This document shows, in pieces, positions 13,318-57,758 of a DNA stretch of 64,000 bases. The stretch spans positions 1 through 64,000 of the forward strand of contig JACMJZ010000024.1 in NCBI GenBank assembly GCA_014380365.1, written 5' to 3'. A model generated the notes under the pieces. The model saw nothing but the letters and a program-made list of their open reading frames with translations, ran no database searches and had not been told where the DNA came from. The DNA is from Pyrinomonadaceae bacterium (GTDB taxonomy: Bacteria; Acidobacteriota; Blastocatellia; Pyrinomonadales; Pyrinomonadaceae). A program made the position numbers and the translations under genes. Each line of letters starts with the position of its first letter. Positions within the stretch are counted from its first letter, which is position 1.

Positions 13318-13394
13318 CTTGGATCTCCGTCAGAACTGTAAGAAATGCGGAAATGCATGGTACATCAGGCCAACTTGGCTCGCAACGCGAAGGA

Positions 13395-13530
13395 TTTTCC
13401 AGTACTGGTGCATTTTGAAAGCGGAAACAGTTCTTCTTTGCGGAACTCTGCGTCCGGCTTTGCGATCTTTGCGGTTTTTCTTCGTCTTAACCGGCAAAGG
13501 ACGCAAAGGGGCCACAAAAGAACGCAAACG
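13395..13530. repeat. CTTTGCGG-type dispersed repeat, partial copy
   Basis: CAGTACTGGTGCATTTTG followed by CTTTGCGG-rich sequence and then CGCAAAGG-rich sequence. It resembles the left end and interior of the element at 54313-54456 but lacks the right terminal repeat. Confidence 0.6.
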
Positions 13531-13540
13531 AAACAACCTT

Positions 13541-13792
13541 TCAACGCCATCTCCGGGTCTCTCAACGCCATCTCCGGGTCTCCCAACGCTGTCTCTGGAC
13601 CTTTCAACAATATCCCTGCATCTTTCAGCACCAACTCCGGGGCTTTCAACGGTAGCTCGGGGCTTTTCAAAGCCAGCTCCGAGGACTTCGATGAGGTCTC
13701 CGGCTCCTTCAAGCGAGTACCGTGGACCTGCAGCGGCAACGTTCGGATTCTCAGAAACGGTTCCCAGTCTTTCAACCGCACCTCCGGGACCT
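13541..13792. repeat. Array of twelve degenerate 21-bp repeats
   Basis: Twelve units of exactly 21 bases, mostly starting TTTCAACGCC and ending TCCGGG(T/A)C, drift in sequence from left to right. The period is strict, with no indels. On either strand one frame reads as a heptapeptide repeat (plus: FNAISGS-like; minus: LKDPEMA-like), but no start with a ribosome-binding site was found, so it is listed as a repeat. With the partial element before it, this accounts for the 13318-13840 gap. Confidence 0.85.
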
Positions 13793-13840
13793 TAAATCGC
13801 GGCTACCGGTGGTGAAGGAATGTTCAGGTACAATCACCGC

Positions 13841-17991: not shown

Positions 17992-18101
17992 GGAGCAGAC
18001 CGCAGGGGCAGTCGGCAGGTAACCAACAAAGCCGCATAACCCAACCCGCTGCCTTTGTGCTCTTAGTCCTGCTCCTGCCGACTGCTCCTGCCGACTGCTC
18101 C
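17992..18101. repeat. 13-bp tandem repeat and inverted partner at convergent gene ends
   Basis: CTGCTCCTGCCGA occurs twice plus a partial copy (18069-18101), and a near-complement (AGGAGCAGACCG... GGCAGTCGGCAGG) lies at 17992-18018. The tandem part falls inside the last codons of larB. Confidence 0.7.
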
Positions 18102-18860
18102 TTCTTCCCCCGGCCACTTCCGATTGATCAAGCTTGCGACGAATCCCGCGCCGAAGCCGTTGTCAATATTCACCACCGTCACGTTCGATGCGCATGAGTT
18201 GAGCATTCCCAGCAGCGCCGCGACGCCGCCAAACGATGCCCCATAGCCGACACTCGTAGGCACTGCAATCACCGGCACGCTCACTAATCCACCGACTACC
18301 GAAGGTAACGCGCCTTCCATACCGGCGGCGACAATCGCAACGCGCGCACTTTGAAGGAGCGAACGTTCCGACAGCACGCGGTGGATTCCGGCGACGCCAA
18401 CGTCCCAGACGCGCTTGACCCGATTCCCCATCGCCTCAGCAGTCAACGCCGCTTCCTCCGCCACTGGAATATCACTCGTGCCCGCCGTAACCACGACGAT
18501 CTCGCCGACGCCGCGTTCGGTACGATCTCTTTGAATCCTTATTAAACGCGCCGACTCGTGCCACTCAGCTTCGGTCACAACGTTTCGCACTTCGCCAAAC
18601 GTTGCTTCGTCAGTTCGCGTGACGATTACATTAGGAGCGTGCTGGATCAATCGCTCGACTATGCCCACGACCTGTTCACGCGTCTTGCCGGCGCCAAACA
18701 CTACTTCCGGAAAGCCCTGGCGGGACGAACGCGAATGATCCACCCGCGCGTAGCCGATGTCCTCGTAGTGAAGATCTTTGATTCGCCTGGCTGCTTCGGG
18801 CGCATCCAGCTCGCCAGACCGATAGGCCGCCAACAGTTTTTCGATCTCCAGCAAATTCAT
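18063..18860 (-). CDS. larB: LarB-like carboxylase (PurE-related, AIR carboxylase domain)
   Basis: 265 residues. The C-terminal half has the PurE-like fold with [49 protein letters not shown] and NIDNGFGA, all hallmarks of LarB, which carboxylates and activates nicotinic acid adenine dinucleotide for the nickel-pincer cofactor. larC and larE are not in the window. The start is ATG 18860 ([10 protein letters not shown]), where similarity begins. The last dozen residues ([11 protein letters not shown]) are encoded by a 13-bp repeat and look non-native. It is divergent from ubiX. Confidence 0.88.
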
Positions 18861-19013
18861 AGTTAAACGATAATCTCCAAGGTGGCCCGGCATTCTAACA
18901 CTCCTCATGACTTGAGGCGGCAAAGCCGCAACCCGAAAATGTGCGCACTCCCAGCCGAAGGGCGCTCGCTTGCGCCGCAACCAAGCGCCAAGTAAGATCG
19001 GCTAAGCTTAACA

Positions 19014-19652
19014 ATGGAATTTACAGTAGCAATCACCGGGGCCTCGGGAGCGATTTACGCGCAGCGCACGCTCTTCCACATGGCTGCCAGCGGCGTGGTT
19101 GAGCGGATTAATCTGATCGTGTCAGACGCGGCACGCACGGTTGCGCGAGTCGAACTTGGTGTGGATTTCGGCACGGATAATGGATGGATCAACGAATGGC
19201 TGGGTCTGCCGCGCGGTTCGCGAATGGTTCACCTGCATCGCCTCGACAATATCGCGGCAAAGCCCTCGTCTGGTTCTCATCCGCAGGAAGGGATGGTTAT
19301 CGTTCCCTGCTCGATGGGCACCCTGGGAGCAATCGCTTCCGGAGCCGGAACCAACCTGATTCACCGTGCGGCGGATGTAACGCTGAAGGAGGGTCGCAGG
19401 CTCGTCCTCGTCCCGCGCGAAACCCCTTATAACGCGATCCATCTGGAAAACATGCTGCGACTGTCACGCGCGGGCGCGCATATCATTCCGGCTAGTCCCG
19501 GTTTTTACCATCGTCCGCAAAGCATTGAAGCCCTGGTTGACCACTTCGTATTCCGCGTTTTGGATCATTTGGGGATTCCACATTCGCCGACGACACAGTG
19601 GAGAGGACTTAAGGAACAGTCGGGCGAACTGGTAAACGCGAAGGAAGATTAG
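19014..19652 (+). CDS. ubiX: Flavin prenyltransferase UbiX
   Basis: 212 residues. FTVAITGASGAIYAQR begins the Rossmann-like fold; PCSMGTLGAIASGAGTNLIHRAADVTLKE and LVPRETPYNAIHLENML are strong UbiX signatures. It makes prenylated FMN, the cofactor of UbiD-type decarboxylases. Placed before ubiA and mqnE, it probably serves menaquinone synthesis by the futalosine route, whose late step needs a decarboxylase. An insertion-like stretch (GTDNGWINEWLG) follows the N-terminal third. Confidence 0.93.
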   Translation: MEFTVAITGASGAIYAQRTLFHMAASGVVERINLIVSDAARTVARVELGVDFGTDNGWINEWLGLPRGSRMVHLHRLDNIAAKPSSGSHPQEGMVIVPCSMGTLGAIASGAGTNLIHRAADVTLKEGRRLVLVPRETPYNAIHLENMLRLSRAGAHIIPASPGFYHRPQSIEALVDHFVFRVLDHLGIPHSPTTQWRGLKEQSGELVNAKED

Positions 19653-19679
19653 GCCGATACGCGTGTGTGCTCAAGAAGA

Positions 19680-19702
19680 AGACAGGCAAGAATACCTGTC
19701 CC
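19680..19702. repeat. AGGACAGGCAnnAATnCCTGTCC-type repeat
   Basis: GACAGGCAAGAATACCTGTC lies between ubiX and ubiA. Related sequences are at 59135-59155 and as two arms at 60056-60135. Confidence 0.6.
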
Positions 19703-19724
19703 ACGGTTAGGAAATCCACGATCG

Positions 19725-20600
19725 ATGCCAACCCTCGTCAGAAACGTTCGCACTACCCTTGAAATGATCAAGATTGAGCACACGCTCTTCGCGTTGCCAT
19801 TCGCATTTCTGGGAGCGGTGCTGGCGGCCAATGGATTGCCGTCGCTGCGGCAAGCCTTCTGGATTACGGTCGCAATGGTTGGCGCGCGGTCAACTGCGAT
19901 GGCCTTCAATCGAATAGTGGATCGAGAATACGACGCGGCCAATCCACGCACCTCCACGCGCGCGCTGCCCGCCGGGCTTTTATCGGTTGCCTTTGTTTGG
20001 GCTTTCACCGGTGTCTCAGCAATCTTGTTTCTCGTCGCGGCGGCTATGCTGAATCGCCTGACGCTGATGCTGGCGCCGGTCGCGCTGGCCAGTCTGTTGT
20101 TATATTCGTTTTCTAAACGCTGGACGTTGATGTCGCATGTGTTGTTGGGCTGGTGTCTGTCAATAGCGCCGACCGGAGCTTGGATTGCCGTGCGCGGCGC
20201 GCTCGATAGTCCAGTGCCGCTCCTGCTTTCTCTCGTCGTACTATTGTGGACCGCGGGCTTTGATGTCTTGTACGCCTGCCAGGATTACGACTTCGATCTA
20301 CGCACCGGGCTCCATTCGATTCCACGGCGTTTTGGCATCAGGCATTCTTTGCTTATTGCCCGCTTGTTTCACGTCGGCACCTTTGTGGCGTTGCTTGCTT
20401 TATACTGGATTACCCAGCTCGGGATGTTTGCGCTGATAGGCGTGGCGGCAACGGCTGCTCTGCTCATCTACCAACACCGGCTGGTGCGCGCTGACGATTT
20501 GAGCAAGCTCAACGCGGCTTTTTTTACAACGAACGCTTTTGTGAGCGTGATTCTATTCTTAACATTTGGCGGAGCTGCCCTCCTCAGGACTCGTCTATGA
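19725..20600 (+). CDS. UbiA-family prenyltransferase (MqnP-like)
   Basis: 291-residue polytopic membrane protein with about eight helices. The two Asp-rich motifs that bind prenyl diphosphate through magnesium are seen: [17 protein letters not shown] and [16 protein letters not shown]. It would attach the polyprenyl chain to the naphthoate head group at the inner membrane. Position between ubiX and mqnE points to the futalosine pathway (MqnP role) rather than ubiquinone. ATG 19725 is used; the frame is open further upstream through a dispersed repeat. Its end overlaps mqnE by four bases. Confidence 0.9.
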
Positions 20601-21724
20601 ATTTTTCCCATGACTCGAAACTAAACGCTGTCGCCGATAAGGTTGAGCGCGGCGAGCGGCTCTCTTTTGAAGACGGTGTCGCGCTCTACACAACCGACGA
20701 CCTGCCCGGCCTAGGGAAACTCGCCGATAGCGTCAGGCGCCGGAGGCATGGCAGGACTACATACTTTAATGTGAACCGTCATCTGAATCCCACCAATGTC
20801 TGTTACGCCGATTGCAAGTTTTGCGGATTTTATCGCACGCCGCGTCAGCCGGATGCCTACACGCACAACATTGATGACAGCCTGAAGGTCGCCGGCGAGG
20901 CGGTGAAGGAAGGCGCGACTGAGCTCCACATCACGGGTGGACTGAACACGAAACTGCCTTTCAGTTATTTCACCGATTTGCTGTCAGGGCTGAAACAACA
21001 TTACCCGCAGCTCCATTTGAAAGCTTTTACGATGGTGGAGTTTGACCACTTCGCGCATTTCTACAAAATGAGCGACGAAGAGGTGATTCAACAGTTGATT
21101 GCCGCGGGGCTGGATTCATGTCCTGGTGGCGGCGCGGAGATATTTCGAGAGCCGACGCGTTCAATGATCTGTGCGCACAAGTGTGATGCCGACCGTTGGC
21201 TGGAACTGTCCGGCAAGGTCCACGCAGCCGGGCTCAAGACAAATGCGACGATGCTTTATGGACACATTGAGTCGATCGAGGATCGCGTTGACCATCTCCT
21301 GCGTTTGCGCGCTCAGCAGGACCTCTCGCACGGCTTTCAGTGTCTTATTCCGCTGGCCTTTTATCCGGAGAAGACGCAACTAGCCCATTTGCCCGGGCCC
21401 TCAGGCGTCGATTCGCTGAAGACCATGGCCGTGTCTCGACTGTTGCTCGACAACTTCGATCACATCAAAGCCTACTGGGTGATGCTCGGAAAACACTTGG
21501 CGCAAGTTGCGCTACATTTTGGCGCAAACGACATTGACGGAACGATAACTGAAGGTGGGGAACTCTCCGAAAGTTATTCCATCGAAGCGAACAACGAAGT
21601 AAGGATGTCGCGGAGTGATCTGGTAGCGCTGATCGAAGACTCCGGATTCGAAGCCGTGGAGCGCGATACAGTCTACAACCCAATTGCGCGCGAAGGTGCG
21701 CCGAGCAATGTTAGCCTGGTTTAG
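20597..21724 (+). CDS. mqnE: Aminofutalosine synthase (radical SAM)
   Basis: 375 residues. The radical-SAM cluster motif is [17 protein letters not shown] (CxxxCxxC). [36 protein letters not shown] and [11 protein letters not shown]...[12 protein letters not shown] are typical of MqnE and separate it from MqnC. It joins 3-enolpyruvyl-benzoate-type substrate with SAM to give aminofutalosine. ATG overlaps the ubiA stop (ATGA), so the two are co-translated. mqnA, mqnB and mqnC are not in the window. Confidence 0.95.
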
Positions 21725-21755
21725 TTTGCGGTTCCGATGGTTCCAATCTGATCTC

Positions 21756-21850
21756 AGTCTCTGTGCGTGCTCTGTGTTCTCTGTGGTGAGCAAACGTTAA
21801 TAAAGCTTCACCACAGAGACACAGAGAACACAGAGCACGCACAGAGAAAT
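21756..21850. repeat. CACAGAG/CTCTGTG inverted repeat
   Basis: The left arm (21759-21790, TCTCTGTGCGTGCTCTGTGT...) and right arm (21808-21847, ...ACAGAGCACGCACAGAGA) are near-perfect complements separated by about 17 bases. It lies in the gap between mqnE and the mqnD-like gene on the same strand, so it is transcribed within the possible operon. Confidence 0.9.
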
Positions 21851-21909
21851 CTGAAATGAGGACACTTACCTTTCCGAACAAAGATCTATCAGCACTCGAC
21901 TAGATATTT

Positions 21910-22758
21910 ATGCCCACACTTTCTGAGACTCGCACAATTTCAGTCGCCCATTCACCAGATTCTGACGATGCCTTTATGTTTTACGGGCTCGCCACCAACA
22001 AGCTCGACACTGGTAGTCTGAGCTTCACCCACGTTCTTAAAGACATTCAAACACTTAATGAGGAAGCGTTCCGCGGAACTTACGATGTCACTGCCGTCAG
22101 TTTCCATGCCTATGCTTATATCGCCGACAAATACATCCTGCTGCCTCATGGCGCTTCGATTGGCGATAACTATGGACCGATTCTGGTTTCACGCGAGGCG
22201 TCAAAAGGCAAAGATATATCGAGTCTGAAGATTGCCATCCCGGGAACTTTGACAAGCGCATTTCTTGCGCTCAGAATTTTCAATCCAAGTTTTGAATACG
22301 AAGTCGTGCCCTTCGACAAGATAATTGACGCCGTGCAAAGCGGACGCTGCGATGCCGGATTGCTAATTCACGAGGGCCAGCTTTTTTACGAGTCGTTGGG
22401 GCTGCATAAGATTTTAGACTTGGGTGAATGGTGGCATGAGAAGACTGGCCTGCCTCTGCCAATGGGCGGAAATGTAATACGACGTGAACTCGGTCCGGAG
22501 ATAGTTGGCGAGGTTTCCGATTGCCTGCGCAGGAGCATAAGTTATTCGCTCGCTAATCGAGAAGATGCGCTCGAGTATGCAATGCAGTTTGCCCGTGACA
22601 TGGACCCTGAGCTTGCGGATCGATTCGTCGCCATGTGGGTTAACGACCTGACTCTCGATTATACGGAGCGAGGACGCGAAGCTGTGCGACGTCTTCTTGA
22701 CGAAGGCTTCGAAAAGGGCATCATTCCTCACCGAGTGCCGGTGGAGTTTGCGACGTAG
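21910..22758 (+). CDS. MqnA/MqnD-family menaquinone biosynthesis protein (MqnD-like)
   Basis: 282 residues with a periplasmic-binding-protein-like fold but no signal peptide. [16 protein letters not shown] at the start, [22 protein letters not shown]-like [25 protein letters not shown] and [11 protein letters not shown] fit the MqnA/MqnD superfamily; the HEGQL motif is typical of MqnD, 1,4-dihydroxy-6-naphthoate synthase. Downstream position after ubiX, ubiA and mqnE supports this. MqnA cannot be wholly excluded from motifs alone. Confidence 0.85.
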
Positions 22759-43982: not shown

Positions 43983-44396
43983 ATGACAATCGCCAGGGGC
44001 AAATACAAGCTTGCCATTAAGCGGACCGAATACGGATTAGGTCTGTTTACTTTGGAACCCATTCCGAAGGGAAAACGCATCATCGAATACACCGGTCCCT
44101 TTGTCTCAAACGAATACGTCGAAAAGAGACCGAACGGCAAGTATTTCTTTGGGGTTAATTCGAAGTGGACTATCGACGGCACGCCTCGCAGCAACACAGC
44201 TCGGTATATCAACCACTCTTGTCGTCCCAATGCTGAAGCAATCATTACCGGACGCCGAGTGTGGATATGGTCGAAACGGGCGATCAAAGCCGGTGAAGAA
44301 CTTTCATACGACTACGGCAAAGATTATTTTGATATTCATATGGGACCAAATGGATGCAAATGTGAAAAGTGTCGAGGTGGAAAAAAGAAGCGTTGA
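43983..44396 (+). CDS. SET-domain protein (putative protein lysine methyltransferase)
   Basis: 137 residues, essentially a bare SET domain. GLGLFTLEPIPKGKRIIEYTGP is the N-terminal SAM-site region, NTARYINHSCRPNA and GEELSYDYGKDYF are the pseudoknot and catalytic Tyr motifs, and CKCEKC is a short post-SET cysteine motif. SET enzymes methylate lysines on proteins; the bacterial target is unknown. It begins 92 bases after tRNA-Asp, with a terminator between, a position that suits an acquired gene. The Lys-rich C-terminus and slightly lower G+C than its neighbours fit this but do not prove it. Confidence 0.92.
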   Translation: MTIARGKYKLAIKRTEYGLGLFTLEPIPKGKRIIEYTGPFVSNEYVEKRPNGKYFFGVNSKWTIDGTPRSNTARYINHSCRPNAEAIITGRRVWIWSKRAIKAGEELSYDYGKDYFDIHMGPNGCKCEKCRGGKKKR

Positions 44397-44591: not shown

Positions 44592-45803
44592 ATGATCTCT
44601 GTTGATGAAGCCATCCGGATTGTCCAGGCGCATAGCCGACCGCTTCCAACCGAAAGCGTGGGGTTAACTCACGCGCGCAACCGATTCCTCGCAGAAGATG
44701 TGACCGCTGATTCGGATCTGCCCCCGTTTGATCGTTCGCAGATGGACGGTTATGCAATCCGTGCCGCTGACGTCAGCCACGTTCGGGTGAGTTTGCGAAT
44801 CGTCGGCGAATCCGCGGCGGGTCGCGGCTGGCATCAGCAAATGCAAGCTGGCGAAGCGGTGCGAATCATGACCGGCGCACCCGTTCCCGAAGGCGCCGAT
44901 AGCGTGCAGCAGGTAGAGCTAACGCGCGAGTTGGAAGGCGGAAACGCGGTCGAGGTTCTGCAACCGGTTGTTCAGGGACGATCGATCGTCACGCGCGGCA
45001 GCGAAATCAAAGCAGGTCAGATTATTTTGCGCGCTGGAGAAACTATCGGCGCAGGGGCGATGGCGGTCCTTGCTTCTTTCGGCTACGCACGCGTCAAGGT
45101 GGGACGACGCCCGCGCGTTTCAGTAGTTGCGACAGGGAGCGAGCTGGTGGGCGTCGCCGATAAGCCCGGGCAGGATCAAATACGTGATTCGAATAATTAT
45201 TCCATCCGAGCGTATGCCGAAAGCGCAGGCGCGCAGGTCGAGCAACTGCCGCTTGCCGGCGACGACACGGAACTACTCAAACGCCAGTTTGCCGAAGCCG
45301 CAACGCGCAGCGATATCGTAATTAGTTCCGGCGGTGTTTCCGTCGGTGTCTACGACTTTACGAAGGCGGCTTTGAAAGAACTCGGAGCGGAGATCTTCTT
45401 CGAACGGGTTGCGCTACGCCCCGGCAAGCCGATAGTCTTCGCGCGACTTCCCAATGGAACGCTTGTTTTCGGTCTACCTGGAAATCCAGTCTCCGTTTCA
45501 GTCACCTTTAATCTTTTCGCTCGCACTACGATTCTGGCAATGCAGGGAGCGCAGGCGACTGAGTTGCAGAAGGAAACGGCAGCTCTGACTAAAGACTTAA
45601 AAGGAACGCAGGACCGCGAGAGCTACCTGCCCGCCGAATTGAGCACGAGCAGTGACGGCAGACTGTTGGCGTCGCCATTGAAGTGGGGCGGCTCATCGGA
45701 TTTCATCGCATTTGCGCATGCCACCGCTCTAATCATCGTGCCGAAGGGTAGCGAGCGTTTGGAGGCCGGAGCGACCGTGCAGGTGATGCGTCTTCCTGCG
45801 TGA
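44592..45803 (+). CDS. moeA: Molybdopterin molybdenumtransferase
   Basis: 403 residues. RNRFLAEDVTADSDLPPFDRSQMDGYAI, MTGAPVPEGADSVQQVE, SVVATGSEL and FGLPGNPVSV are MoeA signatures across all four domains. It inserts molybdate into adenylated molybdopterin in the cytoplasm. moaC lies 2.2 kb downstream on the same strand, so cofactor synthesis genes are loosely grouped here. Confidence 0.96.
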   Translation: MISVDEAIRIVQAHSRPLPTESVGLTHARNRFLAEDVTADSDLPPFDRSQMDGYAIRAADVSHVRVSLRIVGESAAGRGWHQQMQAGEAVRIMTGAPVPEGADSVQQVELTRELEGGNAVEVLQPVVQGRSIVTRGSEIKAGQIILRAGETIGAGAMAVLASFGYARVKVGRRPRVSVVATGSELVGVADKPGQDQIRDSNNYSIRAYAESAGAQVEQLPLAGDDTELLKRQFAEAATRSDIVISSGGVSVGVYDFTKAALKELGAEIFFERVALRPGKPIVFARLPNGTLVFGLPGNPVSVSVTFNLFARTTILAMQGAQATELQKETAALTKDLKGTQDRESYLPAELSTSSDGRLLASPLKWGGSSDFIAFAHATALIIVPKGSERLEAGATVQVMRLPA

Positions 45804-45970: not shown

Positions 45971-46023
45971 AGTGATTGATAACGGAAAATGACGAATTCA
46001 CGTTAACGGTCGGAAACCATCGA

Positions 46024-46884
46024 ATGATTGAGACTGATCGCCAGAGCTGGGGCGCGGACGCACATGAGCGGAAGGTGGAAAATCTCTATGGCGGCGGCAT
46101 AGAGAACTACCTGGGTCATCACGATGGTTATCTGAACTTCGGGCTCTGGGAAGACGGCATCACTGATTACGTCAAGGCAGCGGAAAATCTGGTGCAGCGA
46201 ATGGGCACGCTTCTCGGGCTTGATCACGGCAGCAAACTACTCGACGTCGCACCCGGGATGGGCACGCAGGACATTTATTTATCCCGGAACTTTTCGCCAC
46301 TCTCAATCGACGGGCTCGACGTAACCTGGGGACACGTTGAGCACGGCAGGCGTCGCGCCCGCGAAGCACACCTGGAAGATCGCGTGCGGTTTAGCCATGG
46401 GACGGCCACCGAGATTCCCTTCCCTGACCAAACGTTTACACACGTGTTAAGTATCGAGGGGCCCGAGCACTTTGATACGAGGGAAAAGTTTTTGCAGGAG
46501 GCTCGACGCGTGTTACAACCCGGCGGCGTTATTGCGATGGCTGATTTTATTATGAAGAGACGCCCGCGTAATTTGGTCGAGAAGATCGTCGCGGAAGCAG
46601 CGCGCAGTCTATGGAAAGTCCCCCGCGCGAACGTGTACCCGGCGGACGTCTATGCCGAGAAGATGCATGGCGCCGGTTTTGAAAACGTTACTATCGAGGA
46701 GCTGGGGGCGTTAGTCATTCCGGGCTACTATTTCGAACAGATGAAGCCGGAAACAATCAAAGCGATAACCCGAATCCGCGGTGTCATGTTAGCCCGGCTG
46801 AGTCTGCTGCTGGATGTTGCCGTCTATCGCGGCTTCACCATGGGATTGTTGGAGTATGTTCTCGTGCGAGGCGAACGAAGCTAA
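46024..46884 (+). CDS. SAM-dependent methyltransferase (class I)
   Basis: 286 residues. The SAM loop is LLDVAPGMGTQDI, followed by VTWGHVEHGRRRA (acidic residue after strand 2), the motif for post-I AT EIPFPDQTFTHVLSIE and VLQPGGVIAMADF. The N-terminal YLGHHDGYLNFGLWEDG resembles sterol/tocopherol-type small-molecule methyltransferases. The substrate is not known. An in-frame TTG at 45976 would add 16 residues, but ATG 46024 is preferred. It converges on the plasmalogen desaturase gene. Confidence 0.88.
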   Translation: MIETDRQSWGADAHERKVENLYGGGIENYLGHHDGYLNFGLWEDGITDYVKAAENLVQRMGTLLGLDHGSKLLDVAPGMGTQDIYLSRNFSPLSIDGLDVTWGHVEHGRRRAREAHLEDRVRFSHGTATEIPFPDQTFTHVLSIEGPEHFDTREKFLQEARRVLQPGGVIAMADFIMKRRPRNLVEKIVAEAARSLWKVPRANVYPADVYAEKMHGAGFENVTIEELGALVIPGYYFEQMKPETIKAITRIRGVMLARLSLLLDVAVYRGFTMGLLEYVLVRGERS

Positions 46885-46904
46885 GACGAGCTCGACTCGG
46901 TTTC

Positions 46905-46989
46905 GGTAACGCAAACTGTTAGCTTGCGCTTGGCCAGACAGTTGGGCAGCGATGGCCAACGGCACACAAACCAACAGTTTGCGTTAACG
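46905..46989. repeat. Inverted repeat at convergent gene ends
   Basis: GGTAACGCAAACTGTTAG (left) and CAACAGTTTGCGTTAACG (right), with GGCCAGAC... and GATGGCCAAC forming an inner dyad. The stop codon of the desaturase gene lies in the right arm. Confidence 0.8.
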
Positions 46990-47847
46990 AGCCGACGCTG
47001 CACTCTGCGGCTTCCGAAGTTCATTGACCTTCGCGGTGTGAATGCCCAGTAAAGCCAACGCGCCCTCAAGCCCGCGAAAGAATTTGATCCCGTCCAAAAG
47101 CGAATTAAGCCAGCCGTTGGTGATGCAGTAATGCGTTTCGAATGGCTTGGTATGATGCAGCTCATGATGCGCGGGTTCTAACACCAGGCGAAGGCGCTGC
47201 AACGGCCGGGCAAAAGCAGGAGGGTTTTCCGAATGCGCCCATTTGTGAAACTGGTTCGTCGCCGCTGTTGCTAAAGTCATCAGCGAGACGCAGAGGATCA
47301 AAAACGCCAGCCAGCTCGAAACATCCCTGCCCCACATCAGGTAAAGACAAAACAACAACAATGGAGCAGCCATCAGGCAGACATTTCCGATGGTTGCGGC
47401 GAAAGGGTGCGTGGTGATATCTCTCGGGTAGATATGATGAAGGCGAAACGGTTTCACAAAGTTCGGGCCCAGAACCGGCATGTCTTCCGAACCATAAGTA
47501 TCGGCAGCCCAGTGGACCATGCCTGATACAAAATCACCGGCCAGAAGAGCGATGGGAATGGCGAGAACGACCAGCCAGATCATTTCCTGCTCATAAAGGC
47601 GATTGAGCGACAGGTAAAGATTCGGGAGAAACAAAACGGGAAACAGCGACAGCATCAAATATTCCAAAAAGGAGTGGAATGCCGATTCATGTTTCTGGAC
47701 GCCGCTGTAACCGGTCCGGGGATTCGCAGTCACGTCGTCGGCGTGCGCATTTGCAGCAGCATCCTCGGTCTCTGCCAGGGGGCGCGAAGTCAAATCCCAC
47801 TGAGCAGGCGCGCTAAACGAGCCTCTGTTTTCTACAATTCCTGACAT
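46984..47847 (-). CDS. CarF/PEDS1 (Kua/TMEM189) family plasmanylethanolamine desaturase
   Basis: 287 residues. Three or four membrane helices and the His-rich motifs of the family are present: [37 protein letters not shown] and [20 protein letters not shown]. The family (human PEDS1, Myxococcus CarF) makes the vinyl-ether bond of plasmalogens. No ether-lipid gene is in the window, but the conservation of all His clusters argues for an active enzyme. The N-terminal 50 residues are low-complexity and poorly conserved. Confidence 0.92.
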
Positions 47848-47993: not shown

Positions 47994-48470
47994 ATGAATC
48001 AGCTTTCACACATTGATGACCAGGGTAACGTAAGGATGGTGGATACGAGCGACAAGGCTGTGACCACGCGCGTGGCGACTGCCTCTGCCCGGGTCCTGAT
48101 GTCAGCGGATACTGTCGCCGCGATCCAGGGACACAGAACGCCGAAAGGCGATCCTCTGGAAGCCGCGCGTCTGGCCGGCATCATGGCTGCTAAACGGACC
48201 GCGGATCTGATTCCCCTTTGCCATCCACTGCCGCTTACGCACGTGGATGTGCAGGCCACAATTCAGGACTACGGCGTCTATCTCGAATCGACCGTTTCCA
48301 CTAATGCCCAGACAGGAGTCGAGATGGAAGCGCTGACGGCGGTATCAGTCGCAGCCTTGACGATTTACGACATGTGCAAAGCGCTCGACAAGGGAATCGT
48401 TATTTCCGAGGTGCGTTTGGAACGTAAGACGGGCGGGAAATCAGGCGACTACATCAGGACCGCCCCGTGA
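47994..48470 (+). CDS. moaC: Cyclic pyranopterin monophosphate synthase
   Basis: 158 residues. [30 protein letters not shown] and [27 protein letters not shown] are MoaC signatures with the active-site His, Glu, Asp and Lys. It completes the first step of molybdopterin synthesis after MoaA. ATG 47994 is used; the frame is open much further upstream but similarity begins at MNQLSHID. Divergent from the desaturase gene. Confidence 0.95.
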
Positions 48471-57568: not shown

Positions 57569-57758
57569 GCCAACGGCGCGAAATGTAATAGCCTGGGGCA
57601 GCGCCCCAGGTTTGCCGCATGCAATGAAAGACTAGCTCTGAAGGAGCGAAATGAGATGAATCGCTTCTTTCTATTCCGCGCCTTCAGCGCTTGATTGTTC
57701 TTATTCCTTGTCCTGGGGCGCTGCCCCAGGCTATTACATTTCGCGCCTTTGGCGCTTT
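57569..57758. repeat. Large inverted repeat downstream of uvrA
   Basis: GCGCGAAATGTAATAGCCTG and GGCTATTACATTTCGCGCC are complements at the ends, and each arm has CTGGGGCAGCGCCCCAGG. About 110 bases lie between. It fills most of the 309-base gap between uvrA and the SGNH hydrolase gene; no gene was found there. Confidence 0.9.

Follow-up and report, generated by a model that had tools for sequence, protein, structure and literature searches.

The stretch of DNA analysed here (the window) comprises 64,000 nucleotides of a Pyrinomonadaceae contig. Between moeA and moaC it holds two convergent genes, the travelling METHYLTRANSFERASE, which encodes a SAM-dependent methyltransferase, and an open reading frame with an ATG start and a TAA stop for a 287-aa lipid desaturase (Table 1). 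The preliminary description had placed the latter at exactly these coordinates and gave no strand, which we find to be minus. The desaturase scores 166.4 bits (E 8.6e-49) against PF10520 (Lipid_desat; gathering cut-off 26.4), and a profile search of the genome that carries the window (G000; 4.98 Mb, 34 contigs, 95% complete) returned it, on contig C33, as the single PF10520 copy. The open reading frame is not a chance one, since its frame alone among the six has a positive coding score and homologues occur in 11 other genomes of the family. G+C content (0.536) and GC3 (0.611) lie slightly under those of the neighbouring genes; horizontal transfer was considered on the grounds of odd base composition and no such oddity was found. 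A tblastn search of a plasmid collection returned no match. Where the 3′ ends of the two genes converge there is a terminator-like inverted repeat, the second arm of which runs into the final codons of the desaturase gene; the short core of the repeat is not widespread, the 9-mer being present in 8 of 203 loci. No singlet-oxygen or carotenoid gene was recognised among the neighbouring genes scanned. The source had been taken for a probable acidobacterium, in agreement with the nearest relatives, which are metagenome-assembled genomes (MAGs) labelled Chloracidobacterium, Blastocatellia and Pyrinomonadaceae, and with two Acido-Lenti-1 RNAs found in the window.

Table 1. Features of the locus and of the corresponding slot in related genomes. 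Coordinates refer to the window unless a locus is named.
Feature	Coordinates	Strand	Basis or remark
moeA, left border of slot	44592..45803	+	profile match, slot comparison
SAM-dependent methyltransferase, class I	45976..46884	+	302 aa; Methyltransf_11 61.1 bits; candidate partner gene
Inverted repeat, terminator-like	46903..46990		24-nt arms, 88% complementary, 40-nt spacer
PF10520 nine-histidine lipid desaturase, putative CarF/PEDS1-type	46984..47847	-	287 aa; profile, residues, tree, AlphaFold model
H147 codon, ninth histidine	47407..47409	-	murine PEDS1 H131 / CarF H113
moaC (conserved ATG), right border of slot	47994..48470	+	profile match, slot comparison
Ferritin-like slot gene, G493	L169 2690-3544	-	moeA locus
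Ferritin-like slot gene, G482	L170 2825-3637	-	moeA locus
Ferritin-like slot gene, G491	L171 2809-3636	-	moeA locus
Ferritin-like slot gene, G492	L173 1098-1937	-	moeA locus

All histidine clusters of the family had been said to be present, and the residues bear this out in full. Read by hand against published residue numbers (PMC8960569, PMC7149458), with spacing equal or at most two residues off, H112, D116, F134, H137, H138, H201, H205, H228, H231 and H232 of the desaturase correspond to H96, D100, F118, H121, H122, H187, H191, H215, H218 and H219 of murine PEDS1, and H147 to the ninth histidine (H131 of murine PEDS1, H113 of CarF). By published numbering, the protein is thus like animal PEDS1 (TMEM189) in its eight histidines, Asp, Phe, ninth histidine and equal or near-equal spacing. 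In the mouse enzyme the eight histidines, Asp100 and Phe118 were shown to be essential or important (PMC8960569, excerpt), and the eight histidines are common to all homologues (PMC9131029, excerpt). The ninth is found in homologues from metazoa, myxobacteria and Leptospira, and those of them that were tested complement an M. xanthus ΔcarF mutant, whereas plant and alphaproteobacterial homologues are without it and those tested fail to complement (PMC9131029, excerpt); its mutation cuts murine activity strongly, though not fully (PMC7149458, excerpt).

These residues bear on a reading in which the protein is a PF10520 acyl-lipid desaturase of other regiospecificity, acting on an ester-linked acyl chain and giving no plasmalogen. 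Plant FAD4 belongs to PF10520 and makes a delta-3 trans bond in the acyl chain of PG (PMC9131029, excerpt), and the window protein shares with it the domain and the eight histidines. FAD4-type proteins, however, are without the ninth histidine and usually have Arg there (same excerpt), a position at which the desaturase has His; we regard a FAD4-like activity as unlikely, though well worth keeping in view. Across 90 PF10520 proteins (11 from acidobacterial genomes, the window included, and 79 of 80 scanned loci, L039 having failed the pattern; at least one genome, L003/L050, enters twice) His occupies this position in 83, the exceptions being R in L002, Q in L007, N in L008 and L009, A in L010, S in L037 and C in L102. 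A fragment (L011 of G367, 22 bits) was dropped ahead of this count, and the patterns used to scan for relatives did not draw on the ninth-histidine residue. All 12 copies in the window's family, the window's own among them, have the ninth histidine, and other phyla, Planctomycetota, Actinomycetota and Spirochaetota among them, also yielded nine-histidine relatives. Two observations weaken the residue as a marker sufficient for plasmalogen synthesis: L037 has Ser, yet its genome carries an AGPS-motif gene, and the nine-histidine proteins of G167, G405 and G410 come from genomes in which neither a full-length ElbD nor an AGPS-motif protein was found.

On NCBIfam model NF045946, the CarF equivalog, the desaturase reaches 183 bits, below the cut-off of 500 that is NCBI's naming threshold, whereas M. 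xanthus CarF, scored over 253 aa, reaches 531. Because of that shortfall we do not file it as a CarF equivalog; on its sequence it is filed as a nine-histidine PF10520 desaturase that would work like CarF/PEDS1. In a maximum-likelihood tree of 56 rows, which do not include L. interrogans CarF, animal PEDS1 or FAD4, the window protein belongs to a six-row acidobacterial set (100/93) inside eight acidobacterial rows (97/90), and these nest in a 15-row clade (100/100) along with Leptospirales/Spirochaetia (L046, L068, L031), a planctomycetotal row (L033), a deltaproteobacterial MAG (L047), L037 and L005, the last from the window's own family. M. xanthus CarF (L074) belongs elsewhere, to a group of 8 rows (98/98). 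An unstarred group (88/94) that includes M. xanthus CarF also takes in the L002/L102 pair, which is without the ninth histidine. On the tree the residue at this position must change three times, and for two of these changes starred branches leave no alternative. We know of no verified enzyme inside the 15-row clade, the tested L. interrogans protein not being among the rows; searches aimed at Leptospira found PF10520 in 14 of 30 genomes of the order and 19 of 48 of the class, copies that were left out of the analyses.

Since the equivalog cut-off is missed and the clade is a different and well-supported one, the activity of the protein is something that we infer. Its likeness to M. xanthus CarF lies in the PF10520 domain, in all nine required histidines with Asp and Phe, in 45% identity over desaturase residues 91-257 and in a genome with colinear elbBCDE genes; the two differ in clade and in model score. 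The designation as a CarF/PEDS1-type desaturase therefore stands on the domain, the ninth histidine and the ether-lipid genes, but not as an equivalog assignment, and the position outside the verified CarF clade, far under the cut-off, would also fit a FAD4-like enzyme.

An AlphaFold model of the desaturase (mean pLDDT 86.2, pTM 0.81, 38 sequences) has as its top solved structure the yeast Scs7p hydroxylase, a membrane di-metal enzyme, at Z 9.1 (190 aligned, rmsd 4.9), well over the next unrelated entry at Z 4.4, in a range (below about 13 for helical models) where the aligner may be reporting a common arrangement only. Foldseek returned nothing at E ≤ 0.001 (best 0.036). For both reasons the predicted fold and its distant Scs7p match are taken as supporting evidence only. 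Stearoyl-CoA desaturase was absent among the structure matches listed for the model, and a sequence search of solved structures with the desaturase gave no match at E up to 1.

A search for ether-lipid genes, which the preliminary description had proposed, turned up an elbBCDE-like operon in the host genome, on contig C20 and thus on a different contig from the desaturase gene. Its four genes stand in a row on one strand and encode a HAD protein (220 aa), a LarA-type isomerase, a 1470-aa protein with FAR, AMP-binding, PP-binding and acyltransferase domains and a NAD epimerase. The row is colinear with four successive genes of M. xanthus AM003 (L118), whose make-up is that described for elbB-C-D-E; identities are 45, 59, 47 and 46%. 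Homologues of elbB, C, D and E thus follow in the same order as in the M. xanthus elb operon, and ElbD has the FAR-ACS-ACP-acyltransferase arrangement. The ElbC homologue (L023 6914-8653) scores 784 bits on NF052592, over the cut-off (740) for the NPN-dependent LarAH14/15/16 isomerase family. This match suggests that the elb pathway includes an isomerisation of the hydroxyacid type, the protein itself being listed as of "unknown function" (PMC9131029, excerpt).

M. xanthus has an AGPS-motif gene in addition, whereas no AGPS-motif protein was found in G000. Two FAD-oxidase_C proteins of this genome (L013, L014) were considered for the role and rejected: they carry EHGVG/EHGIG, and L014 is closer to lactate and 2-hydroxyglutarate dehydrogenases than to AGPS. 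Given the elbBCDE-like operon and no recognisable AGPS, the genes of a predicted alkyl-ether precursor route are present, with ElbD in place of the FAR1, GNPAT and AGPS of the animal pathway (PMC9131029, excerpt). ElbD was found in all 10 desaturase-bearing genomes of the family that were tested, full length in eight, split over two contigs in one (G402) and partial in one (G401); these are 10 of the 12 such genomes (G484 and G490 lie outside), eight of them reached through named loci matched by identical neighbourhoods. Among 31 genomes searched, 13 have a full-length ElbD (G000, G025, six other Acidobacteriota, Myxococcus, Hyalangium, Archangium, Lujinxingia and G172) and 16 do not show one among the matches listed, best first.

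Proteins with the HHHGxG motif of AGPS occur in G396 (M. xanthus), G397, G172, G376, G407 and G409, and a variant motif in G411. From 12 genomes, 30 of the 34 FAD-oxidase matches listed were read, giving 8 HHHG proteins, 14 with other HG-type motifs and 8 without a pattern match; a further check of AGPS identity was made on L161 only. G376, another acidobacterium, encodes on contig C184 an AGPS (E 2e-168 to 4bby, presumably the guinea-pig enzyme) about 2.7 kb from a PF10520 gene, a pair (L198 12754-13386 and 16039-17832) that involves a different nine-histidine protein. This pairing of a nine-histidine relative with another ether-lipid enzyme speaks for the plasmalogen reading.

The precursor genes reach well beyond the desaturase. 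In a sample of 396 genomes of the phylum, which was probed for ElbC alone among the operon's products, 42 genomes have a match to the ElbC-type protein (E ≤ 1e-20) and 10 a PF10520 hit above cut-off. ElbC occurs in all 28 sampled genomes of the family (partial in G395; no member of the family is among the non-matching rows listed, nearest kin first), two of which, G000 and G025, have the desaturase. Over 119 genomes of the family, some of them incomplete, PF10520 is found in 12: nine of the 16 of the window's genus, two of another genus and one of a third. On these sequence counts, the ether-lipid marker is constant across the family and the desaturase optional. The published record fits: alkyl glycerol ethers, iso-branched fatty acids, iso-diabolic acid, PE and PC are described for Pyrinomonas (PMC4644332, excerpt) and complete elb operons have been reported from a number of subdivision-4 genomes (PMC10087280, excerpt). 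In Pontiella, ElbD homologues are present and no ether lipids were detected (PMC11868695, excerpt); in sponge metagenomes, elbD clusters were assigned to Acidobacteriota and carF is named only for Myxococcus lipids (PMC9426513, excerpt).

It had been proposed that the desaturase gene predicts ether lipids in its host. With ElbC in 28 of 28 genomes against the desaturase in 12 of 119, and ethers already known from Pyrinomonas, what the gene would predict is the vinyl ether, not ether lipids as such; by the same token, elb genes that are family-wide in the sample give weak specific support to a plasmalogen reading. They would nonetheless supply the substrate of a PEDS1-type enzyme throughout the family, a point against FAD4-like activity. 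The patchy distribution, together with an empty slot in a congener (G197, below), could instead mean a gene that is decayed or idle and has no present function. That is scarcely credible for an intact open reading frame with all catalytic residues, a coding score that is highest in the frame of the gene and a G+C content near that of its neighbours, the more so as the catalytic residues are kept between copies only 43-62% identical.

The position of the gene is fixed within the genus. In all nine desaturase-bearing genomes it lies between moeA and moaC (in the case of G486 and G488, it is the corresponding named loci, L028 and L027, that show moaC clearly). For the seven genomes of the genus without a desaturase, moeA was retrieved in five and none came from G481 and G487. 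One of the five, G197, has an empty slot, with moeA and moaC 65 bp apart; in the other four (G482, G491, G492, G493) the slot holds a gene of 271-285 aa oriented as the desaturase is. Its product is ferritin-like, at 20-21 bits on FA_desaturase_2, just short of the cut-off of 22.7. A model built on 4 sequences has a pLDDT of 61.7, and stearoyl-ACP desaturase, R2lox and ferritins tie as its closest structures; with such low confidence and a three-way tie we keep to the term ferritin-like diiron protein, one that resembles acyl-ACP desaturases. A moeA tree unites these four genomes in a single clade (100/99) and sets G197, the one with the empty slot, beside G483 (99/94; only a third of the G483 moeA was used), which has both methyltransferase and desaturase genes. 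The arrangement in G197 is consistent with joint loss of the two, and one deletion could also explain it. Elsewhere the moeA slot is variable in general, as a different methyltransferase lies beside moeA in G075 and G383, of other genera.

The swap hints at a linked lipid-modifying role of the slot genes. It also feeds the FAD4-like alternative, for if the slot served acyl desaturation, a gene in the same orientation for a product that resembles soluble acyl-ACP desaturases is what four congeners might be expected to hold.

The methyltransferase is 302 aa long from the listed TTG start, with homology beginning at about residue 17. Of the 12 family genomes that carry the desaturase, 5 have the two genes side by side, in two gene contexts: the moeA-moaC slot (G000, G480, G483) and another (G498, G500). 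In G498 the two genes share a strand with 18 bp between them, and in G500 the methyltransferase is broken into two ORFs; the other seven genomes showed no match to it in the stretch examined, nor did the M. xanthus CarF locus (L074). Across the 396 genomes of the phylum, it is matched in nine at E up to 1e-20 and in only three (G000, G172, G346) at E < 1e-80; PF10520 lies on other contigs in G172 and is absent from G346. Its relatives in the PDB are small-molecule enzymes such as MitM and glucose O-methyltransferase. Further methyltransferase genes beside a desaturase lie at L202 8141-9073, L024 5742-6611 and L025 5875-6735.

Taken on its residues, kinship and genomic background, the desaturase is probably an O2-dependent delta-1′ desaturase of ElbD-derived ether phospholipids. 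It would be an integral-membrane di-iron enzyme that introduces the vinyl-ether bond, so converting sn-1 alkyl-ether phospholipids of the plasmanyl type to their plasmenyl counterparts, the plasmalogens. By analogy with M. xanthus, ElbD (fatty acyl reductase, acyl-CoA synthetase, ACP and acyltransferase domains) would make the alkyl-ether precursor with ElbB, ElbC and ElbE; a headgroup, most likely ethanolamine, would then be attached; and the desaturase would finally take two hydrogens from C1′-C2′ of the O-alkyl chain with O2 and an electron donor. The desaturase would be an optional last step on a family-wide ether-lipid pathway, whose chains are probably iso-branched, and the host is predicted to make plasmalogens with oxygen.

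The same chemistry might be directed at another substrate, namely membrane-spanning glycerol ethers of iso-diabolic acid or ethers with other headgroups, and not at ordinary plasmanyl-PE. Membrane-spanning iso-diabolic acid and glyceryl ethers are described for Pyrinomonas (PMC4644332, excerpt), vinyl-ether membrane-spanning lipids exist in Bacillota (PMC13274423, excerpt), and the clade of the desaturase is apart from that of M. xanthus CarF; even so, we judge this distinctly improbable next to action on ElbD-derived ether phospholipids as set out above. As a bolder extension, we speculate, with considerable doubt, that Pyrinomonadaceae have an aerobic, AGPS-free plasmalogen pathway in which the methyltransferase is a dedicated second enzyme that tailors the plasmalogen or its ether precursor and, in congeners without the desaturase, the ferritin-like diiron protein of the slot is a non-homologous replacement, a soluble enzyme that would form the same double bond or one equivalent to it.

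Beyond myxobacteria, true CarF homologues had been reported only in Leptospira, an alphaproteobacterial homologue being inactive, according to a 2022 review (PMC9131029, excerpt). Among the titles and abstract openings listed for the open-access literature, subscription papers being mostly outside its scope, we saw no report of CarF/PEDS1-type desaturases in Acidobacteriota. A subset of this unexpected phylum has the nine-histidine desaturase together with the precursor genes, and on sequence grounds the function is likely. Should the enzyme prove active, aerobic plasmalogen synthesis would extend well beyond its accepted range, a result relevant to the idea that the animal pathway came from myxobacteria. 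A genus with or without the desaturase in one fixed slot, on a steady ether-lipid background, also offers a natural test of the role of the vinyl ether.

Elsewhere in the window, the two Acido-Lenti-1 RNAs (RF01687; 57566-57610, minus strand, and 57712-57756, plus strand) lie in opposite orientation just beyond the end of an ORF that we take, by eye, to be uvrA-like. Upstream of moeA, positions 43983-44396 encode a small stand-alone bacterial SET-domain protein of 137 aa. An ORF at 13345-13815 with a degenerate AISGS/NAVSG-type repeat is probably low-complexity sequence and no gene. The gene row at 18063-22758, read by eye as UbiX-, UbiA-, MqnE- and MqnD-like, presumably represents the futalosine route to menaquinone.
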